The notes under the pieces: model-generated
Databases searched by the model: none
Told to the model about the DNA's origin: nothing
Seen by the model: only the letters and a program-made list of their open reading frames with translations
Translations under genes and position numbers: made by a program
In this document: positions 11,553 through 29,300 of the stretch, in pieces
Numbering within the stretch: the stretch's first letter is position 1
Layout: each line of letters starts with the position of its first letter
From: Haplosporangium gracile
Lineage: Eukaryota > Mortierellomycota > Mortierellomycetes > Mortierellales > Mortierellaceae
Direction of reading: 5' to 3'
Length of the DNA stretch: 64,000 nucleotides
NCBI GenBank assembly: GCA_015499985.1
Contig: JAAAUF010000033.1
Span: 26,959-90,958, forward strand

Positions 11553-14448
11553 CTACATATGTTCAGGGGTGGCGGGCACGACGCTAAAGTTCTCAAGCTG
11601 CTCGTAGACTTCCTCATGTTCAACATCTTCATCCTCACCATCATCAAACTGCAGCCGGTCCTCTTCAGCAGCATAATAACCAATACTCTCATCATCATCA
11701 GACTGGCGGAACACACTCTCCTCCTCCTCGCCTTCATCATCCTCATCAGAATCGATCTGAACAATCTCCCGAAGCTGATATCCACGAGGTAAAGCCCCAA
11801 ATGTCGAGTCGCCCAATCGAACGGACGTCAGTGGCCGGAATCGATTCTGATCCCGCTCTAAGCTCTGAATGTTTTCAATACTGCCCATCGGCACCGACCG
11901 CATGCCTAGCCGTGGCAGCCGGAAACCCTTGGTATCATCATCGCGTCTGGATTCAAGGTTGGGCACATGAACAACAGGCGGCGAAGGACTGACCGACGAC
12001 GCTGGAGAAGAACCATACGACCACGAACGCGAAGAGCTACTGCTGGTCGACCCCAAAGAGGACGACAATGGCGACGCTCCTCTCTCTCTAACAAATTCAA
12101 AATGCTCCGTGCTCCCAATCAGCTGCTTCCTGACAAAGGGCCGACTCCGTCTCAAGATCGCAACCATTCCATCCGCACATCCAAACAACATGGCTTCGAT
12201 GGGAATTTCGTGTGGGCAATTGGGCGACTGGAACCAGAACCGCATATGTGTCATCACCGTCGACGACTTTGCAATGTCCGCCTGCTCAACAAACGCCGCC
12301 AGATCGTCGGCTCGAATAAACAACAAGAACGGCTTGCCAACAATCTCCTCGGGATCAACATGCAAGATGAGCTCGCACGAGGGAGACGCATACATCACAC
12401 CGATATTTCTAGAGAACCGATTGAGGATCATGCAAGCTCGCGCCTCTGGAGCCAGTTCGCCAGTGTTCCATGCCCCAGATGAAAAAGCCTCATGGTGTCG
12501 ACGAATTCGTTCGAATTCCTGAGACACAGTCCAAAAAAAGTGGATGCCAAAGTGGATTGTAATTTGAGGGTAGAATGCGCAAGAAGGATAAGAAGCAATA
12601 CAAAAAGAACAAACCACTAGTTAGTTATCTCGATCTCGCAAACTAGTTTTCAAAACTGAGCCACATGGGTGAAGGACAATGTTGGTGGTTGTTGAGAATT
12701 TACGATCATGACAAACAAGTAATATTTTTATAAATACAACGAGGCATGACTTATAGATAGAGAATCAAAGAGTCCTGTATCTTGGCTCTCAGGACAGCAG
12801 ACTCCTTCCCTCAACACTCGTCATACGTAGCAAGTCGAGAGCAAAAGGAAACCATAAACAACAAGACGCAGAAGGAGAAAAGGAGTAGGAAAGCAACAGC
12901 AGCATTTACCTCTTTTCTTGAGCCAGCCAGACGAGTCATTGCGGCGGAGTGGATCTTGATGCTTTGAACTATATACCGAGAGAAGAAAAAGAGCAAGAAG
13001 AAAAGTGTGGATCGGTTTAGAAGAGCGCGTTGGGGGCGCTGATCGAACCATGGGGTATGTTGACGCCCGTTAGCTTGGAGTCTACGTTCTGATCCTGTTT
13101 TTCTCTTTTCCAATGGCTTATTTTGCAAGGGGGTTGTTGTGTGTATTTGTGCCACAGAACTTTCTTTGCCGGCGAAGCTTGCTGAGCGTTCTATAAATTT
13201 CCAGAGCGTTCTCTCACAGTTTCGAGTTGCATACCCGTAGGCACAAAAGACTCCTCCTGTTGTTTTGTTCACAATGCAAGAAAGAGTAAAAAGGTATGGA
13301 TGGGTAAATATGACAATTGATCGTCCTTTAGAGGTGATAAAGGGGAAGGAGAGCAATTATCCGTTATCTGATCGTCTGCACATGTGGTTCGTCTCTCAAA
13401 TGCATTGAAAGACTGGGGTGTGTGTGCAGTGCGAGTCTTATGCGGGAGTTGTTCGTCTGTATTGGAGAAGGAAACAAAAAAAAGTTGGGTTGAGGACCCG
13501 GCTATGATGAGCGCAATCCCGCTCTTATACCTACTCTTAGACAGGATTATACAAAAAGGAGCGACATAGACGTCATCGTGCAGATAGCTCAACTCGGAGC
13601 AGGCCCTTCCTCCTCAATGGTCATTGCCGCCATTGTGCCAGAGCCAGGATTCAAGGAACCTGCCCTAAATTGTCATTCCACAGAAAAATGGATGCAATTG
13701 CAACAACAGGTTTGTGTTGAATTCACAATGGACAGTGCAACAATATTGTATGTGTGAGTGTGAGTGTGTGAGTGCTGTTGTGGAAAGGGAAAGGTCCAAA
13801 TGAATAAGAAAGATGGAAGGTATGTGAAAGCGCTAGTTCAAAAAGAGAAGGAGGCTAATCCATTGGTTGTGATGGAAGTGACAAATAAGACTTGTAAAAC
13901 TGTGAGGATCCAGAGCATAAAAGACAGGCTCTGTAAAATGTTTTCGCGGGAACTTGCTGGCAATGGTGGAGAAATGGGTATCCGAATGGTCGGGCGAGAG
14001 TGTTGTTGGTTGATTGGTGTGGATGTGTGTATGGATAGAAGGACTTTAACGAAGCATGGTTGGAGTAAACCTAAAGTGCAAGAAAAAAAAAATACTTACA
14101 CTCGGAAGATGGATCCACGATGGTGGTGCAGTTGACAATAAAGTCATAGCAGAGGGAAAAGAAAGAGGTGTTAGCCACATAGGACCCGTCTTTGGCTCTG
14201 AATCTCAAAACGATCTGCGTGGCGACCATATCGTTGAGGACATTTTCGCGATGGGTGACGGTGGCGCGCTCGACATCGTCGGGGTGAAGGAGCTCGTAGG
14301 TGGTTGTCCGCATGAACTCCTCGGGGGTGTAGCCGAGACAGTCGGTGATGGAGTCCGAGACCCAGAGGGTGCGTCCTTCCGGGGAGAGATCGTGGATGGA
14401 GATGAAGTTGTTTGCCTGGAATGAGCTGCTGCTTTCTGAGGTTGCCAT
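11553..14448 (-). CDS. Two-PAS-domain protein (putative sensory/regulatory)
   Basis: Three minus-strand exons, 14448-14100, 12968-12910 and 12518-11553, join in frame to give 457 residues. The first PAS domain spans about residues 15-110 (YTPEEFMRTTTYELLHPDD is the typical PAS core). The second spans about 155-255 (VMYASPSCELILHV, then VGKPFLLFIRADD). PAS domains sense light, redox state or ligands, or mediate dimerisation. The flavin-binding cysteine motif of LOV domains is not visible, and there is no GATA zinc finger, so this is not a complete White Collar 1. The C-terminal third is Ser-rich, then strongly acidic (DSDEDDEGEEEE), possibly an activation or interaction region. Intron 1 is 1131 nt, far longer than others here. 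The start at MATSESS was chosen because the upstream in-frame sequence is low complexity. Confidence 0.85.
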
Positions 14449-15673
14449 GGGTGGGTTGAGAGAATGCAAAGGAATGAGTGCGTAACAAGAGTTGAATGAG
14501 TGAATGAATGAGGGGAATAAAGGGTTGGAGGTTGAGGGAGAAGGAAGAACAGAGCTAGAAGTGAACAAAGAGAGGGTGGAGGAAGCAAACTAGCATTTTA
14601 AAGAAGAGGAGCGGAAGGAAAGAATATTAATAATAAATGACGAAAGAGAAAGAAGAAGAAGGACAAAGAAGGAGAACGAATGAACGGATGGACAGGACGA
14701 ACGGACAGAAAATGCGAGAACAAGAGGTGAAGAAGGGGGACAATCCGTCAACTCCAATTCGTTCGTTCATATCTGCCTGTCCTCCACCCACTCCTTTCGT
14801 CCTTCTCTCCCCTTTCTCTCCTCTCACCCCCTCCCCCTCCAAAAAACGAAACATGGAAATTTGTGGTGGATCTTTTCGCCATTGGGCGAAGAAAAATGCA
14901 TGAAGACAATCCTCCCTTGTCCTTTTAATATGTATGTCTGTCTCTATTGGTCTTCTTCTGTTTATTCCATTCGAGACTCCAAGAGATTCAAGGCTTGGAC
15001 TTGATTAAAGTGAAGGAAGAAGGGAGAAGGAAGAAGGGAGAAGGAAGAAGAAGGAAGAGAAAAAATGGTCGATTTACTGCATGCATTTGGGACGAGTATC
15101 TGTAGGTAAAAAAAAAAAAAAAAAAAGGCAATCCATTGGTTCGGGACAGAAGAAGGGTGAGGAGAAAAAGAAACAAAAAAAAGAACAAAAAATCACGCTA
15201 AAATGAGGTTGTGTCTTTGGACCCTGTAAAAGACGAGAACATTAACTTTCTCGGTTACGAGCCGGGAATGGACTCGATGTGTATCTCTGCATAAAAATAA
15301 AAGAGTATACGAACGTCGATATAGTAAATAGCCAGTTTTAAGAGTGATTCCTTTCAAGGACACTGCGTAACGTGGTTGTGATAGTGATAAGAAGGGAACA
15401 AAGGCCTGCTAGCACTTGTGCGTGGTAACGAGGCAGCAAAAAAGTTGATTAAGCCAATGGTGGCTGCGGAAGGCAGGAGAATGGGCGCCTGAAAACAGGG
15501 ATATGGGCGCACAATTACGTCACAGAAGACACATCGCGTGTACCCACTGTACCCGCGATCTGAAGTATCTTGTGTGCTTACTCCACATGAAAAAAAATAT
15601 GCTATAGTAGTAGGCCTTTTAGGATCCGTGGCTTGCTTTCTCCTCTTGGAACCTGCGATATGCTTGCCATTGT
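14449..15673. other. Upstream region of the PAS gene, purine-rich
   Basis: No gene supported. The region holds the presumed promoter and leader of the PAS gene, a GAAGGAA-type tandem repeat at about 15012-15060, and a run of A at about 15108-15126. Open frames here are low-complexity shadows. Confidence 0.55.
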
Positions 15674-18086
15674 TCATCTCCATAGGGTTCGTGTCTGCCT
15701 GGTCTTGGGACCTTGCGATGCGGTGCTTCTAGTCCTGGTCGGCTCTGAACAAGCACTGTCGCCGTCGCTCTCCATCCAGGGATATTTGCTGTCCTTGTCG
15801 ACCGGTTGCAGATACAAAGGACGCCGTTGGTACATGAGATAGTCTTTGACAATGCTACACATGCTATGTGCGGCCAAAACGTCGCGATGTACATATTGTT
15901 GACAGTGTGGGCAGAAGAGTCTCCGTATGTTAACTTGGCAGACAAATTGGTGACATGTCGGGCACTTTTTCGAGGTATAATATTCGTCTACACCGACAAC
16001 AACGTACTCTAGCGAGCGGACCTAATGAAAAGTAAAATGAACGCTGCAAGTTAACAATTTGATCGATGTCAGTATGCGCAAAAAGTACTCAAGCATCAAA
16101 TTGATTATTGAGAATTAAAGGGAAATTTGCCAGTTGAACAAAGAAAGATAAAAAAGGATCCCTGAAGAGAAGATAAACGGTTCTTGGAATCAAATTGGCC
16201 GAGTCCTACTCCGATGACAGTCAGATTGTCCGTATCGCGCTTGGCCCCGATGGTGCCCCCAAAGAGTCCGAAAAGACGATTGGTAATCGTCTTAAACTCC
16301 TCATCCCACGCCCGTGCTGCATCCCAACCCTGTCTTTTGTACGTCATTCGATTGCCATTGTAATAGTTGTCCAGACGCTTCTCGACACCCTCCAAGTACT
16401 CGAGGTATTCGAACACACTTGCATCAGCACCGCGTAACGTCGGCAACACCGATTCAATTTCCGATATCGATGTGTCAAAGCCTTCAGGGATCTGTGCCTT
16501 AGAGCCTTCCAACCATCATTTGTGTTTAAAGGTAGGCTGGTAAACAGCCTTCTGTTTCACAACGAGGTTGTAATATAGAGGCTTTGGATGGGCTAAGGAG
16601 GAGGTCGAGGGAACAGTCCAGGATGCGGGGTCGGTCGAGGAGGCAGCGGACAGCACGGTAGACGACGGCATATTAGAAGTAGAAACGGCCTTCATCTTGC
16701 CTTTCTTGTCTTGATCCGAGACCGTCATCATGCCCTTCTTGTCTAAACTCAGATGTCCAGCAGCAGAGCACATGCTCCGACGACAAACGCCTGACCCAGA
16801 TCCAAGCACAAGACCTTGATTCTTTCTGGTTTGTATTGTGACCAAAGGTGCTCGATATTTTTAATCAAACATTTGACTTGATAATGAAGGCGAATTATTA
16901 AAGCTGAAAAAAGAACTGCACCTCTTTTTCAGCAATCTGGCCTCTTTCTCACTTTTTTCTTGCGCTCCACGTAGCGCATTTTGGCTTCCTCGAACCTAGT
17001 CTTGATATTCTCAAGTGTGAGAGCAGCAGAAGTATCCGACAGAGGAAAATCCAAGTTCCTGGCCAGAGTGGTTGCAGTCGCGTCTGAGCGAAGCGGTGTT
17101 TCTCGTCTGTGTGCAAAGATTCTGATGGAGGCTTCAAATGTTAACTTATCTCTGTTTTTTAAAATGACACGCTCGTCCGACAAGTAAGCATCGGTCATCA
17201 CAGGTATGTCCATGTCTATATAAAAAACGAAAAGTGTGTTAACACAGGAATTACAAACATAAGAAATAAAATAAACAAAAAGGATGATGGCACACTAAAC
17301 ATATCAAGCGGGATGTCTTTAATAATCTTGAAATTCGTTGCACACCCGAGACCGTAGACGTTGCGGTAATAGTCGTTCCATGAGACTATGCTCAGAAAAG
17401 CAAGGTGATTGCGTGTGGTGAAGTCGACACTCCCGAAGACATCGTCCATGACATATTACAGAAACCGCTCTTAGATATCGGCCGCCAGATGGCTGTAGTG
17501 GTGCTGTAGACGGCGTGGTCGCTGTCGCCAGGGATGATGATATCTCCCGGTATGCAATTCTGCGCAATGTGAACGTCTGCTTCCATGTCAGACTCTACAA
17601 CATTCCAATCCCGATCTCTGCAGTACATTGCAAGCGAGTGGCGGCCTGCTGGATCCCATCAAAAAGTGTTGGTGAGCTGCTTATTAGTGTTAACAAAGTG
17701 CTATTTTCGGATGAGGTTGCTGTTGTCAACTCGGTCGGAAAAGTGCTGAACAGCCTTGTCTGCGCTCAGCAATGCCTTTGCCCGTCGCTGTTCCCACTCG
17801 TCGTGGGTCTCCTTCTTCTCCTCTGAGGGTCCGCCGTCGAAATAAAGCACAGAGATGTCTTGACTGCTGAGTTTCTGGATGCGCTTGTAGACTAGTGAAT
17901 GAGCTGCCTCGAGTGGGTTGCTGTGGGTGTATGCATACCGAACGGAGGCGTAGATGCTGCCTTCAACGTCAATGCGGACCTTGTGGCCTCAGGATCCTTC
18001 AAAGCTTCTCGTTGATATCGGCGGTACCATACCGTGGGTTTATAGTTCTTGTCGCGGAAGAACCGCCAAAGATTCTTACAGCTCAT
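15674..18086 (-). pseudogene. Fossil XPG/FEN1-like plus TnpB/Fanzor-like nuclease gene
   Basis: Read from 18086 downward, collinear pieces on the minus strand rebuild an unusual gene. The N-terminus (KNLWRFFRDK) and a following segment with IRIDVEGSIYA-like sequence and YFDGGPSEEKKETH resemble the XPG N domain. Next come EADVHIAQNC, DIIIPGDSD and IWRPISK (XPG-I region), then NDYYRNVYGLGCATNF (helix-hairpin region). After a charged linker come KPLYYNLVVKQKAVYQPTF, VIGVGLGQF, VDEYYTSKKCPTC, FCPHC and HRDVLAAHSM, ending at a stop at 15674-15676. The last group is the TnpB/Fanzor pattern: an E before TS, a four-Cys zinc ribbon, and the final RuvC Asp. The frame is broken near 17980 and by a TGA near 16513, among others. 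The RuvC-I aspartate is not evident. Whether intact relatives are a single protein is inference. Confidence 0.75.
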
Positions 18087-18410: not shown

Positions 18411-19783
18411 CTCGAGGAGGAAGGAACCCGAGCCCATGTTCCTCCTTGTATGTACATGCCCTATGGAGATGTTCGAAAAGCCCAATATCGATTGGTGATC
18501 CAGGATTCTTGGAAGTCCCAAGATCCTACTGTTAGCGTAAGCCTCTGGCTTGATTCAATCAAGAAGGGGGGCGGCAGAGTTATGTTCATCAATAGGGTCC
18601 CTAAGTCTGAGCATTACTTTGTGTTTGCTTGATGTACCTTTTTATTATTTGATATTTTTAAAACACTTTTTTAGCTCTTAACTGGTCCTAATCAATTCAT
18701 TGACCATTTTAGAGTATGGGCAACAACAAAGGCATTATGTGCCTGGACTCCACATAGAGTAGTCTAGTCGTTGAGACCAGATCCTATAAACGAAAAAGTT
18801 CATGGAACCGCATACTTGTTCACTATTCTTGTCAAGGATCGGGAGGCACACTCCGGGATACCGAATGCGTTCATGATTTGCAACTCTGAATCCATGTAAG
18901 TGAAGTCCTCTTATCTTGCTATATTTCTTTTTTGTCTCTTCCAAATTCGACATGCATACTCATAATATCCGTTTCCATTATATAATAGTCATTTATTGAG
19001 AAACTGGTTGACATGGCTCAAAACAGATTGCGGTCAACAGGCTACCAAGTTCATGGTTGGAGATTCTGCCACGGAGACCGAAACACTAAAGCAGGTTTTT
19101 CCTTCACTGGAACTATACTACCGCTCATTTCATGCCCTTTTTTTTTTGTATGTTTGGGAGAAAGGCACGAAAGAGATGCGAAAGGAGTTGAATGCCATTC
19201 TAAATCCAAATTCTGATGCCGAACTCCAGCAACAATGTACCATCCTTCGATGCACATATGCAACACATACTGCAATGACCGACTATATCAACAGCCAGTG
19301 GATGAAACCAGGGAAAATGGTCAGATGGGCCCTATACCATTGAGAGGTAAAGCATGGTGATGCTAACATTTTTTATCGTTCTTTTTTGTTACAACAAACG
19401 CAACAGACCAATTTAACTAACGTAACCGTATTCTTCTACGTCGGCGGGATTACCAGCATATCAACACGAACAATCTTGTTAAAGGTTGGCATAAGACCTT
19501 GAAGAGGCACTTGAGATATGAACGTGATATATGCGGAGATGATCTGATTCATTTGCTAACAGACGTGGTCGATATTGACTTTAGGACCCACCACTACAAA
19601 GTTGTGCATGAATTGGAACCTATGGTACTCTCGGAATACGACAGGGTTGTAAAAGCAAAGGCATTGGAGCTGCCTTTTGATGTAGCCAAGAATATGGTCA
19701 CAGAGATAAACAATGACAAAAAGGTGACACTAGTATTTTTCATGTCGACGCCTAAGCAGCTGTCACGCATTTCTGAATTTTGA
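18411..19783 (+). pseudogene. MULE-type transposase pseudogene
   Basis: Plus-strand pieces in order resemble the catalytic region of Mutator-like transposases. They are SVSLWLDSIKKGGGR, then GIMCLDST (first Asp), then FTILVKDREAHSGIP, then FMVGDSATETETLKQVFP (second Asp), and a helical region ending INTNNLVKGWHKTLKRH, found in MULE transposases just past the catalytic core. The pieces fall in different frames with stops between them (for example after YFVFA at about 18632 and at 19343), so the gene is dead. It starts about 325 bp from the 5' end of the nuclease fossil and points the other way. I found no terminal inverted repeats by eye. It may be an independent insertion or part of one composite element. 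Confidence 0.75.
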
Positions 19784-20095: not shown

Positions 20096-22020
20096 TTAAG
20101 CCTCGATGCGGATCTTGCCTTCGTCGATGAAGGACTGAATGGCAAACTTCCAGACGGTGCCCATGGTCTCATAGAACTCCTGGAACTCGATCGTGCCCGA
20201 CTGATCCTTGTCGTGGTTCTATTACGAATAGAAAAGGATAGAGAAGCATTGGGTAATCAAGGTTAGCAAATTTTGCTTTTTTTTTTTTTGGCAAGAGAAC
20301 ACAACCTATGAGTGGCAGGGTCCAGTTCATGTGTTTGAGCATGCAGAGAAAACAACAAGCAAACAGGGCTCAGAAAACAAAATAAAGGTTTCAATTACCT
20401 TCAAGTATCCGGCCGCCTCGCTGTGAGGAAGACCCCAAGAGGTCAACAGAGTCTCCAACTCGACCAAATCCAAAGATCCAGAACCATCAGCATCCAACGT
20501 ATCAAACACCAGCTTGGCCTGTCCACGAGGGGTGCTTGGCAGCCTGGGGACAGAAACCGAAGAGGAATGGATCCAGCTTTTAGTGAACCATGCACAGAAA
20601 TCATCTGTAGTGACCACTTTTCTGTTTTTAAACAAATCCTCCAACATCAACTTGTCCTCCATCTCAAAGGTCGAAATCCCACAGGCGACCAGGAAATCCT
20701 TGAATTCGTCTACTGACAGCTCGTTGTCGCGGTTGACATCGATGGCTCTGAAGACGGCATGGGCCTTCTCGCGGGGGGAGGTGTTGCGGGCGTTGGCGGT
20801 CATGACGGTGGCGCAGATACGGGAGTAACGATCCTTGGGCTCCTGAACAGAGAGGGAGTCGACAGCATTCGAGACCTCAGCAGCAGTAACAAGGGCTTCA
20901 AGGACAACCTTCTTCTCAGGGTTGGAAGCCAGCTCTCGGGGATGCTCAGTCGTCCAAGCCTTCCAAAACTCATCCGTGCCCGTCGAGCGGAGGATAATGT
21001 CAGAAAAGATGACGAACGAGATCAAGGCAATGTTTCCACGAAGACCCAACACCGAGGGGACGAGCAAAGTGCCACTGGTCAACATGGCTGCCGAGAAACG
21101 ATGTCCCTCAAACAACTTGAATCGGTAGTACAGCGCAAAGAAGACACGAGACCAGGCGTAGATGTGGACGGTGAGGTAGGTTGAAAGGAGGTAGTAGAAG
21201 GAAGTAGGGTTGAGAACCAGATTGATTGCAAAGTATCCATGGAGAGCTGTGACTAGACTGAGGGAAGGGACTAGGAAAGCCTTGATGCCGAGGACGGTGG
21301 GGATTTGGTAGAAGGTTGAGGGGACGTGGGCGATGGCTCCGAACGCTGCGGCTGCGTAGGCGTACTTTGTTGGATCCTCGGCGTAAAATGCACACACACA
21401 TGCGATAACTGTTCGCATAAAGGGGAGTGAAGAAAAGAAGGAGGAAAGTTTGGTTAGTGCATCGGATCGCCAATGTTGTTTTCTTACTTTGCTGTTTGTT
21501 TTGTTAATATTCTCCTTGTTTTGTGGAGTTGTTGTTGTTTATGCAAGTGAGGCTGGTTGTTTCTTTCCTTGTCAAACGGTACGGTGCGATAAACAAATAA
21601 TACGCCAATGTTGCGTTTGTGCTTGAAAGTAAGGAAAAAAAAAAAAAAAAAAAAAAAGGAAGGATCTTACCCATCCCCTGACTGCCTGCCCGATTTTTGT
21701 TACTTACTCTCAAGGCATCCAGAGATGATGTGAAGTTGGAGAATTCGTCTTCTTGCCGTCTTGACATAGAACTACAACAGTCGTGAAAGAAAAATTAGCG
21801 TCGGGTTTTATGAACAAGAGTACTTCACTCATTTGCGAAAATGCTATTGTTTGCGTACCTTGGGGTGGAAAGGGGTGGTGAAGTGATATGTCAGGACGCC
21901 GATGTCGAAGAGGAGGGAGAGGTATCCGACATACATCCGGAAGGTTGTCTCGGATGATTCCCAATCGACATGTTTGCTGTGAGGGAGGAGATCGAACGTC
22001 GTCGTTGTATTCGTCATCAT
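20096..22020 (-). CDS. Multi-pass membrane protein with C-terminal EF-hands (copy A)
   Basis: Four minus-strand exons, 22020-21859, 21771-21708, 21408-20399 and 20218-20096, join in frame to give 452 residues. Residues about 20-215 are hydrophobic and hold several predicted membrane spans. The C-terminal half carries calcium-binding loops: EF loop 1 at 299-310 (DVNRDNELSVDE), a degenerate one near 335-346, a canonical loop at 381-392 (DADGSGSLDLVE) and a last one at 415-426 (DKDQSGTIEFQE) in the final exon. The product is probably a calcium-regulated membrane protein; I do not recognise a named family. Two ATG codons are adjacent at the start (22020 and 22017). Residues about 88-186 are encoded by DNA identical to the tandem paralog at 24697-26302. 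Confidence 0.88.
21078..21373. repeat. 296-bp tract identical to 25469-25764
   Basis: Base-by-base comparison of the two EF-hand paralogs shows no difference over 296 bp, offset exactly 4391 bp. The tract lies wholly inside exon 3 and covers membrane segments. Coding sequence on both sides differs at many positions, including synonymous ones, so the identity boundary is sharp on both ends. Confidence 0.93.
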
Positions 22021-24696: not shown

Positions 24697-26302
24697 CTAG
24701 TCGCATGGATGGGGTGGAGACGTACAGAAAAACGATCGCATGTGGCGTGCCCCTCGTCTCTCTGTTCTACACCCAATGTTTAGTTTTACCCTCAGATATC
24801 CAGCAGCCTCACTGCGGGGCAATCCCCAAGAAGCCAACAAAGTTTCTACCTCGGTCAGATCCAATTCTCCCGACCCATCGGCATCCAGCGCATCAAACAC
24901 CAGTTTTGCCTGTCCTCTGGGAGTACTCGGTACCCGCGGCACAGTAATTGACGATGAATGAATCCAACTCTTGGTAAACCATGTGCAGAAATCATCAGCC
25001 ATCACGATTTTCCGATCCTGGAACAAACCCTCCAACAACATCTTTCCCTTACTGTCATAAGGCGACATTCCACAGGCGACCAGGAAATCCTTAAATTCGC
25101 CTACTGATAGCTCGTTGTCCCTGTTAACATCAATGGCACGGAAGACGGCGTGGGCCTTTTCGCGCGGGGAGGTGTTGCGAGCGTTAGCGCTCATCACGGT
25201 TGCACAGACTCGGGAGTAGCGGTCCTTAGGTTCTTCGATGGAGAGAGATTCGACGGCATTGGTGACTTCTGCAGCAGTGACGAGGGCTTCGAGAACCACT
25301 TTTTTGTCAGGGTCGGTAGCCAGTTCCCTAGGGTGTTCTGTTGTCCAGGCAGTCCAGAAATCGGAGGTCGTATAGGATCGGATGAGCCCGTCGCAAGTCA
25401 GCACAAATGTCACCAAGATGATATTACCCTGAAGACCTAGCACTGAGGGGACCAAAAGCGTGCCGCTTGTCAACATGGCTGCCGAGAAACGATGTCCCTC
25501 AAACAACTTGAATCGGTAGTACAGCGCAAAGAAGACACGAGACCAGGCGTAGATGTGGACGGTGAGGTAGGTTGAAAGGAGGTAGTAGAAGGAAGTAGGG
25601 TTGAGAACCAGATTGATTGCAAAGTATCCATGGAGAGCTGTGACTAGACTGAGGGAAGGGACTAGGAAAGCCTTGATGCCGAGGACGGTGGGGATTTGGT
25701 AGAAGGTTGAGGGGACGTGGGCGATGGCTCCGAACGCTGCGGCTGCGTAGGCGTACTTTGTTGGGTCCTGTGCATAAAACGCGCGCACACACGCCATGAC
25801 TTTTGTGAGAAAGGACAAATACATGAGAGTTAACATCGGGAGGGAAACAAAACAAGCATTCTCCATGCAGTCAAAGTACTGTGCAAAGCACTCCCATTTA
25901 GCCAAGCGAGGGACCTAAAGAAAGTGAAGGGGTACGTACTCTCGAGACATCCACTCAAAATGTGGGTTCGAAGGACTCTCCGGCGAGCGGTCTTGACATA
26001 GAACTAATTTCGTCAGCCAATCGAGCGAGATCAAAAGCAAACAAGTTTGTTGATCAGTCTTACTAACAAAGTATGTTTCTTGCAGTGCGCAGAGGAACAA
26101 ACAAACAAACAACGATTTCTATAACCACTAATTGACTGTATACCTTGGGGTGGAAGGGTGTGGAAAAGTGGTAGGCAAGGACATCAATGTCAAAAAGAAG
26201 GGAGAGGTATCCGATATACATGCGGAAGGTCACGTCGGGTTGTTCCCAATTGACATACTTGTAATGAGGGAGCGGGTCTGTTGGTGTCATCGTTCTATTC
26301 AT
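24697..26302 (-). CDS. Multi-pass membrane protein with EF-hands (copy B), last exon lost
   Basis: Paralog of the gene at 20096-22020 in the same orientation. Exons 26302-26144, 26003-25940 and 25799-24790 match copy A exon for exon; exons 2 and 3 have exactly the same lengths (64 and 1010 nt). The membrane half and EF loops DVNRDNELSVGE and DADGSGELDLTE are present. After exon 3 the donor position (GTAAAA) is followed by no recognisable exon 4, so the fourth EF-hand is missing. The frame instead runs 30 codons into former intron, with a basic, Cys-bearing tail, to a stop at 24697. Predicted length is about 441 residues. If an undetected distant exon exists the end would differ. Confidence 0.8.
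25469..25764. repeat. 296-bp tract identical to 21078-21373
   Basis: Partner of the tract in copy A. Its first differing base on the left is 25468 and on the right 25765. Confidence 0.93.
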
Positions 26303-29300
26303 CTTGAAAGTTTGGAGTACAAAAGGAAGTTGAGTGATTGCTTGCTGAAAGGAAAAGAAAAAAAATGGAAATTGGGGAAAGAACATCCTTTTAACGGAAG
26401 ACAGTAGAAAAAAAAAACAAAAAGTAGGTCTCACCACGAAGGGAGAGGGATTCGTCAAGAGATAGGAGCATGAATACGAGAGAGGACTAGTCAAGGGAGC
26501 CCTTTTAGATTGAAGGTGATTCGTCAATGAGAAGAAGAGAGAAGTGAGGAACAGATGGTGCTGTCCACTAAGCAGAAAAAGAGAAAGCGTCAGGAAGTAG
26601 GAAGGGCATTGGTGGATGGGAGAAGTAACGACTCTTCGGATCATGAAAAGGAAGACAAGGCGGTTGGGTCTGTATGCCAACTAATTCCTTGAGGAAAAAA
26701 GATATATCCCCTTACGGTACAGAATGGCCCAGACTGGATTTTTTTTATCCCTTTCCATTTTATCCGTGTAGAGAGTGAAATACGCGCGCGCGCGCTTTGA
26801 GGGAGAAGTGATGTTATCATCCTGCCTACTGCAATTTTTGTTCACTATGCTTCTTAACGCATCCTTTTCCTTCTTTTTGTCCCTTGATACTTTTCCTTCT
26901 AAGCGGTATCTTAGTCTAGTTTTCATATAGCCTTCTCGCAGCATCATGTTGCTTCTTTTGCGTACCCTCAAGCACAACGTCTACTACATCCAAAAGCGAG
27001 TCTTATTTAAACTGCAACAAGGCATAAAAGCTCCGTTTTTCATGCGAAGAAAAAAATACTAAAAGGGGTCAGTGTATGGCTTGGACATGGACGTGAAAGA
27101 GAGGAAGATCGGAGGCCAGTAACACATCATACATACACCCTCACACTTACATGCATCATCAATAGGAAGCAAACGGGGAAAGATTGTTTAAAGATCGCGT
27201 AGTTAACGAACACGGTTCGACACACCGGACTCCTGTTATTTTGGACCGCAATGATAACAATATGAAATGTGGTGTGTGTTGGGGATCATATTCTACATCT
27301 TAGGGGCGACGGGTAGGTTGATAATCTATACCAGGGTGGGCTTGCCCATAACAGAGCTGAAATGAAATGGTAGAGATGAAAGAGCTTGTTTACTGCTGCC
27401 CTCTCTTCTGTTTCCTTTCGTTATCGAAAACGCCAAGGTGGCGTGGTCTGGCCTGCCTGAAGGGATGAGTGTGATGTGCATGACAAAGGGGAGTAGTAGA
27501 TGCGAGGTAGCTAAGATGGCCCTTGTTTTTTCCCTTTTTTTCCATCGCATGGGTCGAGCATAGAGAGAAAAGAAAACAACTATGTCGATACCACATTAAC
27601 GAGCTCCATCTCGAAATGAACGCGTGCCTTTTCGATTTCCATATTTTGTGTTATTGCTGTGCCTAGTTCTTTTTTTTCTCACGAGTGTCCAGCCAATAAG
27701 CTCGACAAAGGAACCTGATTAGACTGGTCAAACAACCCAAACGTCTGCAGAATATAGGAGCGGGCAGGGGTAAGGCGCTTAAAAAGTTATAGAACCCGCA
27801 ACCTCTCGAAAGACGAGACTCAATGGTGACATAAAGAGGGAGCCAGCCGTGCGTTGTGGGAAAAGCGGAAAATAGGTTCGCGGAAAGCCTTGACGACCAC
27901 AGACATCCGTACGTATTTTTTTTTCTGGTTGTGTGGTTGGGTTCCTTTTCTTGTTCGTACGCTCGTCAACAGTGGGTTACCGTAAGCGGGGGCCGCTGGA
28001 AAATTTCATTACAGGGATACGAAAAAAGAGGAGGGTGTCTTTTGGTGTGGTTGCTGAGTTCAATTGGAGCCATGATCGAAAAGTAAACTTTTATTGTCGC
28101 AATTGACATGCCAGAGCAGAGTAACAAAAATAATTAGAAAACGAGCGCGCATGCATAAAGTGGGAGGAAAAATATAAACCACAAAACGCAAAACAGAAAA
28201 AAGGTGAGAAAGAGAGAGCACGGCCGTGAGAGCAGTTCGGCGGGTTGGTGGGTGGGTGAGGAAAGTGTGTCTGTCGGGAATTGAAAATAACCATAGCACA
28301 CTTTTTTTTTTCGAAAATGTCGAAAAGTAAGCGGAGGAATAAGTGAGCTCCAGCAAACAGACCATCTGCGAAGAGTGCGATGGAAGGAAGGAGGACTACT
28401 GACCCATATGTTAACTTTACTTTCTTAGTTCAATTAGACCCTGTCCATTCTGATTTGTTTTTCTGCGAAAACAAACAATGATATTCATACGTAGACGATC
28501 TCTAGCCTTTCTTCCTTCTCTGCCATCCCTTACGAAAAGGCAGCAGTGGTAGTCATCGATTCTCCTGTGTATGCCTTGTGTCGAGCGTGCACCCACAGCA
28601 AAATAACAAAAAACGACTCCTTCTTTTCGCTACTGCAACAGAGTAGTCTGAGGATCATGGTAGCATGAGAAGCGGATAACGAGAGAAAGAAGAACGTTCT
28701 GGGCTGACTAAAAGTCGCGACATCACGATGGGTATGATCTTATCGAATTGGAGTCCACGCATGTAGACGCTAATCCTGCTTCCTCTCATCCTTTCTTAAT
28801 CCTTGATTACCCTTTTGCTTAGCGAAGAAAAGACGATCAAGGTGGTGTTGGTGTAGTTTATTCAATTGCTCTGGTTATTTTTTCATGCGAATGTCCGAAT
28901 CTTTTTGCATGCATGAATCTCCGAGGACTGCTCCCTTCTCTGTGTGCGTGGATGTGGTGGATAGTGCGATTAAAAAACGGCAGACGAAGAGCGACAGAAA
29001 CGATTGAATAAAAAGGAAGAGAAGGAAAAGTAACAGTAAAGTGGTCTTTATCTCCCTATTTTTTACCCCTTTTGTTTGTGTAAAAAATTAAAGAAGAAAA
29101 GAAGGAAAGAAGAAAACGGTTAGAAAAGTGAATAAGAGTGAATCCAGTCGATTGATTTCAATTCAATGCTAATCAATAGCTTTCCTTCTGCCCATGGGTC
29201 CCTCTTTGTAAACACTTCATACTTTACTTTTCTTTGTTGATTCTTTAGTCTTTCCTTCAGCACATTCCCTTCATTAGTCGTTCTTATTTTCTCCTTTATT

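Follow-up and report, generated by a model that had tools for sequence, protein, structure and literature searches.

A stretch of the minus strand of Haplosporangium gracile contig JAAAUF010000033.1 (assembly GCA_015499985.1) raises the question of whether an XPG/FEN1-like nuclease and a TnpB/Fanzor-like RuvC nuclease belong to a single protein and, if so, what carries its gene. The locus lies within the 64,000 nucleotides that we analysed (contig positions 26,959 to 90,958; hereafter the window, from whose first letter positions are counted). A sequence-only reading of window positions 15674-18086 had described a fossil gene joining the two nucleases, whose intact relatives might be one two-nuclease protein carried by a mobile element in Mortierella-like fungi. 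The peptides quoted in that reading were found on the minus strand at the place given. We lean towards an explanation in which a multicopy transposon of the Mortierellaceae, resembling Mutator-like elements (MULEs), encodes an XPG-Fanzor fusion, the hairpin at its right end acts as an omega-RNA scaffold, and cutting by the Fanzor half is joined to end processing by the XPG half. Comparisons among the sequenced copies and homologues show the fused order, the retention of catalytic residues in the two nuclease modules, and an element present in many copies whose right end, just 3′ of the gene, is conserved.

In tblastn searches of the window with P0048, a relative from Mortierella sp. AD010, as the query, the minus-strand pieces at 15674-18086 were collinear, the first half being XPG/FEN1-like and the second Fanzor/TnpB-like. 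The matches comprised an XPG set (18086-18021, 17979-17461, 17467-17312 and 17216-17067; E 1.2e-49), a RuvC-I block (16880-16761; E 2.3e-5) and two Fanzor-like blocks (16587-16126 and 16021-15716; E 1.2e-69). The copy contains at least three in-frame stops as well as frame changes, and the alignment jumps from residue 310 to residue 904 of P0048, ~590 middle residues having been deleted. Because of these stops, frame changes and the jump, the window copy is a pseudogene with its centre deleted, which bears out the description of a fossil gene. PF07282 (Cas12f1-like_TNB) matched 15674-16021 with 41.2 bits (cut-off 26.3), and XPG_N matched 17701-17988 with 18.3 bits, below its cut-off of 22. The XPG_I profile had no match on the piece 17392-17658. 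As the window copy is decayed and lacks its centre, the architecture was read from relatives.

In the H. gracile genome (37.5 Mb), PF07282 matched 48 places at E ≤ 1, of which 32 exceeded the cut-off, and the C-terminal piece of the window copy gave 58 matches. Three of the PF07282 places had a weak XPG_I match in the same orientation elsewhere on their contig. A paralogue on contig C718 (locus L053) could be read as one open frame of 1,351 residues, with five exons and four GT-AG introns; a stop interrupts it within the first codons. This copy scored 44.9 bits with PF07282 and 24.7 bits with XPG_I (cut-off 24.9). Elsewhere, XPG_I reached 25.1 bits in L052 and 23.5 bits in P0002, and an E of 0.01 in six of the 16 members of alignment A3; PF07282 was present in 13 of these members. 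When copies were compared in pairs, changes were most numerous at third codon positions in all nine comparisons and in both halves; synonymous divergence (dS) was undefined in four of the nine and saturated in others.

Three protein searches, each scoring only the ~8,000 candidates that shared most words with the query, extended the family. The C718 reading returned 47 proteins, all with an organism name, the full-length alignment returned 42 (41 with a name), and the C-terminal half returned 157, many of the 120 listed being metagenomic. Every genus named among the matches listed is a member of the Mortierellaceae, in line with the proposed host range. All XPG and RuvC motifs occurred in order in 11 of 181 proteins, 1,180-1,358 residues long and from nine named organisms of the Mortierellaceae; three of these organisms are undescribed Mortierella strains, two of the 11 proteins are labelled partial, and the pattern did not demand the first XPG Asp. 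The linker between the halves is conserved across genera. Full-length homologues were predicted as single proteins, as had been anticipated for intact relatives, and two separate genes were rejected for the family on the strength of the C718 frame, these homologues, the linker and the 11 proteins with all motifs, although one locus (in Mortierella sp. AD094, below) is annotated that way. No relative was found among the viral contigs searched, and a viral origin was rejected on that basis.

The composition of certain annotated members deserves separate mention. P0006 (contig C129) is an apparent chimera that starts with C-terminal residues of the divergent transposase. P0037 (contig C578) is named a prefoldin subunit and has a prefoldin domain, yet contains the Fanzor zinc ribbon. 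In P0044 (Linnemannia hyalina), public predictions join a family member to PF20147, possibly through insertion beside another multicopy gene or as an annotation chimera.

We counted active-site residues in 45 aligned proteins, taking only rows with a residue at the position concerned. In the XPG half, the acids were kept in 22/23 (D86-like), 29/30 (E158-like), 30/30 (D160-like), 29/33 (D179-like), 29/32 (D181-like) and 29/32 rows (D233-like); the D34-like Asp was visible in the alignment, outside these row counts. The labels follow the residue numbers of human FEN1. In the RuvC domain, the RuvC-I Asp was kept in 41/43 rows, the Glu before the zinc ribbon in 27/32 and the RuvC-III Asp in 30/30. 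The sequence-only reading had looked for the RuvC-I site at VIGVGLGQF. This placement was rejected: tblastn located RuvC-I in CLDLGQAF, and the Asp sits in KVLCLDLGQAFVVGA. VIGVGLGQF is the strand that bears the canonical RuvC-II Glu in TnpB; it contains no Glu in the window copy, and the corresponding strand of the family (VLIGVGLG) contains none either. The proposed signature of Glu, zinc ribbon and RuvC-III stood in that the Fanzor-type residues are kept, but the Glu is the 'alternative' RuvC-II Glu of Fanzors and not that of the canonical strand. The family has the D-E-D triad by which Fanzors are recognized, in which the Glu precedes the zinc ribbon by about six residues. Passages of one study (PMC10711439, Nucleic Acids Res. 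2023) describe this alternative position for Fanzors.

An AlphaFold model was built for P0022 (1,180 residues, without the first XPG strand) using 45 sequences, with a predicted local distance difference test score (pLDDT) of 76.3 and a predicted template modelling score (pTM) of 0.60. In Foldseek searches, the top seven matches of this model were Fanzors, with TM (target) values of 0.40-0.54; matches included SpuFz (E 3.6e-9, 782 columns), GtFz (5.4e-8) and PpFz (1.3e-6). FEN1 (3q8k) was matched with an E of 1.4e-5, followed by EXO1, Rad2 and XPG. Profile searches of PDB sequences identified Rad2 (E 1.1e-7) and FEN1 (3.7e-5) with the full-length alignment, and the TnpB-like L79 (4.3e-5) and LaTranC (2.9e-5) with the C-terminal half. 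The predicted model shows both the Fanzor and the FEN1 fold. Overall, the union of an XPG/FEN1-like with a TnpB/Fanzor-like RuvC nuclease is upheld by collinear blocks and by profile and structural matches, those of the C-terminal half to PF07282 and, in Foldseek, to Fanzors being significant. Neither of the two outcomes that the sequence-only reading had named as refuting it was observed for the family.

The gene is divergent from a MULE-like transposase within the same multicopy element, consistent with the suggestion that a mobile element carries it. Since similarity among copies continues into the 3′ non-coding end and into the upstream transposase, the element is larger than the interval of the sequence-only reading, extending from about 15490 to at least 19740. 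Judged by coordinates, 19 contigs have a transposase match, and on eight of them (C441, C343, C1081, C169, C652, C618, C678 and C247) the gene and the transposase form a divergent pair ≤5 kb apart; by this measure the other eleven have no such pair. The transposase, assembled from pieces of C129, scored 18.4 bits with SWIM, just below the cut-off of 19.6, and the window's own transposase pieces matched no transposase family. Among five MULE-profile matches, three below the cut-off (C46, C678 and C1118) share contigs with the transposase of the element; the single match above the cut-off (C61) is on a contig without it. For the copies on C1081 and C169, similarity to the window comes in blocks. 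These take in the transposase pieces of the plus strand at 18.4-19.7 kb and leave gaps in the interior, a pattern like that of internal deletion derivatives.

The left end, GTCCAATGAAATTATTCC..., was identified in C169, C1136, C1081 and C343, ~650 bp beyond the limit of similarity of the window copy, and also has a short palindrome. As other copies extend this much further, 19.74 kb of the window was rejected as the left end. The right end is sharp, with the right terminus of the window copy at about 15490. When the window and the loci examined were searched for the right-end core in reverse complement, as a sign of a terminal inverted repeat (TIR), no matching left end was found. Comparison of the left end GTCCAATG... 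with the right end ...CCAGCC gave no clear inverted match, which leaves room for degenerate repeats. No target site duplication (TSD) of 8-11 bp was seen by eye among the copies examined, none of which had both ends intact. With neither TIR nor TSD established, we name the element only 'MULE-like'.

The right-end core, TTCGGTGACGTAATTNNNNCGCCCATTNTCC, was found at 53 places with ≤3 mismatches, as compared to 0 for the reversed control, and the right end is conserved among copies whose coding sequence has diverged. The core was present in 22 of the 34 contigs examined locally. In all 21 of these that have a coding match, it lies on the same strand, 105-451 nt downstream of that match; C1136 has the core without one. 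Of 20 right ends compared (≤3 mismatches), many of them picked for nearness to contig ends, 18 fell into groups of 8, 7 and 3 that are near-identical over ~50 nt with differing flanks. Fifteen of the 18 lie ≤60 nt from a contig end. From these sequences, we infer that the grouped right ends are recent insertions whose bodies were collapsed in assembly.

The last ~70 nt of the right end can be folded as a nested hairpin with compensatory changes, in which G-U pairs are frequent. Its position is where the omega-RNAs of Fanzors lie. We compared how well the last 12 nt pair, within and between copies, with a stretch located 8-60 nt upstream of the core. Own-copy pairing exceeded cross-copy pairing to an extent reached by 3 of 20,000 permutations (41 rows), and by 104 of 20,000 in an earlier set (22 of 23 rows, one being too short). 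Control comparisons detected no such preference, either with a shifted segment (5,009 of 20,000) or with the outside flank (38 rows; 5,807 of 20,000). These permutations ignore the relatedness of rows. Own helices are exemplified by GGTTATAGG/CCTGTAACC (C275), GGATCTAGGA/TCCTGGATCC (C678), GGCTTGGGA/TCCCAAAGCC (C94) and GGTAGGGGG/CCCCCAGCC (C554); other rows, such as C630, C652 and C812, lack a good helix of their own. We further examined covariation in two groups, which were picked by eye after the folds had been seen and whose structure was taken from one row of each. The first (10 rows) had 80.7% pairing, compared with 39-46% in slid controls, and its covariation was reached by 0 of 500 shuffles. 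The second, A6 (8 rows), had 75.5% pairing, compared with 35-57%, and its covariation was reached by 3 of 500. Because of the way the groups were picked, their covariation supports the structure without proving it, and the permutation test of pairing is the cleaner evidence. On these alignments, a covarying hairpin that terminates at the right end is supported but not proven.

Some right ends are clustered. A second right-end core (GGCGCCCATTCTCCTG) occupies window positions 15489-15472, directly after the right end of the window copy, and a second CCATTNTCC core was found ≤50 nt away in 3 of 41 flanks, versus 0.08 expected by shuffling. Such clusters could arise from a preference for insertion beside existing ends or from local duplication. 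In L072 (contig C1136; 766-832), two copies follow each other head to tail, with ~28 nt between the right end of the first and the left end of the second.

How might such an element use its protein? Cutting of the vacated excision site has been proposed for TnpB. In the explanation that we favour, the Fanzor half would cut allelic empty sites or the re-joined site from which the element has been excised. The XPG half tethered to it, whose role is probably the processing of break ends, would trim or resect the 5′ ends of the break. Repair would then copy the element-bearing template, such that the element would be retained or spread. The right-end hairpin would be the omega-RNA scaffold and the flanking DNA the guide, an assignment made by analogy with the guide RNA of IS607 TnpB, which passages of PMC10711439 describe as reaching past the right boundary of the transposon. 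A more tentative proposal, conceivable though somewhat short of probable, is that the transposon naturally encodes an RNA-guided nuclease into which an end processor of the FEN1/EXO1 type is built and which has its own omega-RNA, the element homing or being retained by gene conversion.

Several observations weigh against this explanation. The right-end core was absent from 12 of the 34 contigs, and in the 22 rows with coding sequence the own-pairing signal was weaker (199 of 20,000). RNAalifold detected no common structure in 38 mixed rows, for which reason the two groups were tested separately; in A6, two of five covariation measures were not above those of the shuffles (both-side changes, 4 versus 5.0; further pair types, 15 versus 16.5). 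Covariation would equally be expected of a DNA hairpin at the terminus if the transposase reads it, although the G-U pairs are frequent. Under looser patterns, both halves were recognized in 15 of the 181 proteins; 24 had XPG motifs without the Fanzor ones, and 33 the reverse. Many of the 181 are incomplete models, and only the C-terminal half served as query in the third search. Mortierella sp. AD094 has one gene model for the XPG half (P0068) and, with the consecutive locus tag on a 5,903-base contig, another for the Fanzor half (P0080). This is the arrangement that the sequence-only reading had named as contrary to a fusion and the one exception seen, full-length homologues being otherwise predicted as single proteins. 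Because the order is one chain elsewhere and the linker is conserved, we read the AD094 sequences as a split gene or a broken copy. Finally, the RuvC-I motif in 121 proteins with context was DLG in 77, DGG in 18, DAG in 16, DPG in 8, DFG in 1 and DMG in 1, whereas passages of PMC10711439 give it as near-exclusively DPG in described Fanzors. As DPG is characteristic and not a strict definition, we call the family, from its sequences, a Fanzor-like branch, placed in neither Fanzor1 nor Fanzor2.

The departure from DPG would fit a protein that is not RNA-guided, with the Fanzor half a structure- or sequence-specific helper of transposition and the 3′ hairpin a DNA end read by the transposase or the fusion protein. 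Hairpins and palindromes are common at transposon ends, the left end has its own short palindrome and, with no clear TIR, the end must be recognized somehow. We nevertheless consider this explanation rather unlikely: the catalytic RuvC residues of Fanzors and the surrounding fold are kept over ~780 aligned columns, and the hairpin contains many G-U pairs and is sited where Fanzor-type guide RNAs lie. Another explanation retains the fusion and its RNA but has the XPG half work on the nucleic-acid complex and not on break ends, trimming the omega-RNA precursor or the displaced strand and flaps of the R-loop. In its favour, enzymes of the FEN1 type cleave 5′ flaps, even those that contain RNA; the acids of the XPG active site are conserved; and, from the position of the core, the precursor would overlap the 3′ end of the gene. 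Such a role is unlikely in our estimation, as we know of no other Fanzor that needs a flap nuclease for trimming of this kind. We regard it as highly improbable that the fusion is an artefact of annotation or assembly joining two neighbouring genes, or a chance resemblance. The transposase residues of P0006, the prefoldin name of P0037 and the AD094 pair would fit such an artefact, but the frame is continuous through the linker in L053, the linker is conserved across genera, the same order occurs in nine named organisms, TNB scores above its cut-off and Foldseek matches both families.

Compared to the Fanzors SpuFz, GtFz and PpFz, the family shares the C-terminal fold (~780 columns with SpuFz and GtFz), a D-E-D triad whose Glu precedes the zinc ribbon by six residues, a zinc ribbon of the C4 type, residence in a DNA transposon of a eukaryote and a conserved, probably structured element end 3′ of the gene. 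It differs in its added N-terminal XPG/FEN1-like nuclease, in the length of the 11 members with all motifs, in a RuvC-I motif that is mostly DLG, DGG or DAG instead of DPG, and in its limitation to the Mortierellaceae among the matches found. With FEN1, XPG (Rad2) and EXO1 it has in common the XPG_N- and XPG_I-like regions and all seven active-site acid positions; its SxNDYxxNIxSLGPATN segment aligns with Rad2, and its EAD is the EXO1 version of the acid motif. Unlike these enzymes, it scores near or under the Pfam cut-offs, is fused to a Fanzor and is transposon-encoded. The resemblance to L79, a protein of viral origin, and to LaTranC covers the zinc ribbon and RuvC-III region, with L79 sharing an NEY-type Glu, but the sequence match extends over only ~65 residues and no flap-nuclease domain is known to us in either protein. 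Moreover, we know of no Fanzor or TnpB with a second nuclease in the same chain.

Fanzor1 genes have been described in MuDr-like elements of Mucoromycota (ROr-4, PBl-3 and MCi-4; Bao and Jurka 2013, PMC3627910). In the passages of that report consulted, as here, a Fanzor is borne by a fungal element of the MULE/MuDr type; those elements have TIRs and 9-bp TSDs and encode no transposase, whereas the Mortierellaceae element encodes a transposase, has no clear TIR or TSD among the copies studied and carries a fused XPG nuclease. Term searches of PMC3627910, PMC10432273 and PMC11423790 gave no mention of a flap-nuclease fusion or of Mortierella, and in the open-licence literature we found no paper on an XPG-Fanzor fusion or on Fanzor/TnpB with Mortierella. 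We therefore rate Fanzors in fungal MuDr-like elements as already known and a second nuclease fused to a Fanzor-like protein as new. According to parts of PMC9450370, an exonuclease fused to Cas9 raises homologous recombination in Pichia pastoris. Such engineered fusions likewise tether a programmable nuclease to an end-processing one; they are man-made, whereas the Mortierellaceae protein is natural and known from sequence and a model. If the more tentative proposal above is true, the element would cut a chosen site and prepare the ends for recombination itself, as a natural counterpart of Cas9-exonuclease fusions. If active, the protein would permit a direct test of how transposon-borne RNA-guided nucleases aid element survival through break repair by copying, and would offer a programmable nuclease from a eukaryote, under which repair may be shifted in favour of recombination. 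The family also extends the known lineages by one whose RuvC-I motif is unusual and whose candidate scaffold for guide RNA is compact.

Table. Features of the element copy in the window (XPG acids assigned by alignment).
Feature	Position	Strand	Basis
XPG/FEN1-like nuclease half	17067-18086	-	tblastn blocks to P0048; XPG_N below cut-off; family profile matches Rad2/FEN1/XPG/EXO1
XPG acids: D34-like, D86-like, E158-like	17970-17968, 17838-17836, 17583-17581	-	alignment
XPG acids: D160-like, D179-like, D181-like, D233-like	17577-17575, 17526-17524, 17520-17518, 17374-17372	-	alignment
RuvC-I segment KPERIKVLCLDLGQAFVVGACALL, catalytic Asp codon 16802-16800	16761-16880	-	tblastn; Asp conserved in family rows
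Fanzor-like middle NLVVKQKAVYQPTF ... VIGVGLGQF, in-frame stop about 16518-16516	16126-16587	-	tblastn, reading of frames
Alternative RuvC-II Glu 15985-15983, C4 zinc ribbon, RuvC-III Asp 15883-15881, C-terminal tail	15674-16021	-	PF07282, alignment
3′ non-coding region, putative decayed counterpart of the structured (omega-RNA-like) right end; conserved core 15527-15490	15490-15673	-	
Transposase fragments, divergent MULE/SWIM-like: 18432-18629, 18722-18894, 18969-19325, 19448-19735	18432-19735	+	
Similarity to other copies ends; true left end absent from window copy	19736-19751	.	

Two further features of the window lie outside the element. Just downstream of it, on the minus strand at 14071-14589, is an open frame that by eye resembles a PAS-domain protein (FISIHDLSPEGRTLWVSDSITDCLGYTPEEFM...). 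The segments 20395-21413 and 24786-25804 are 81% identical and in the same orientation.

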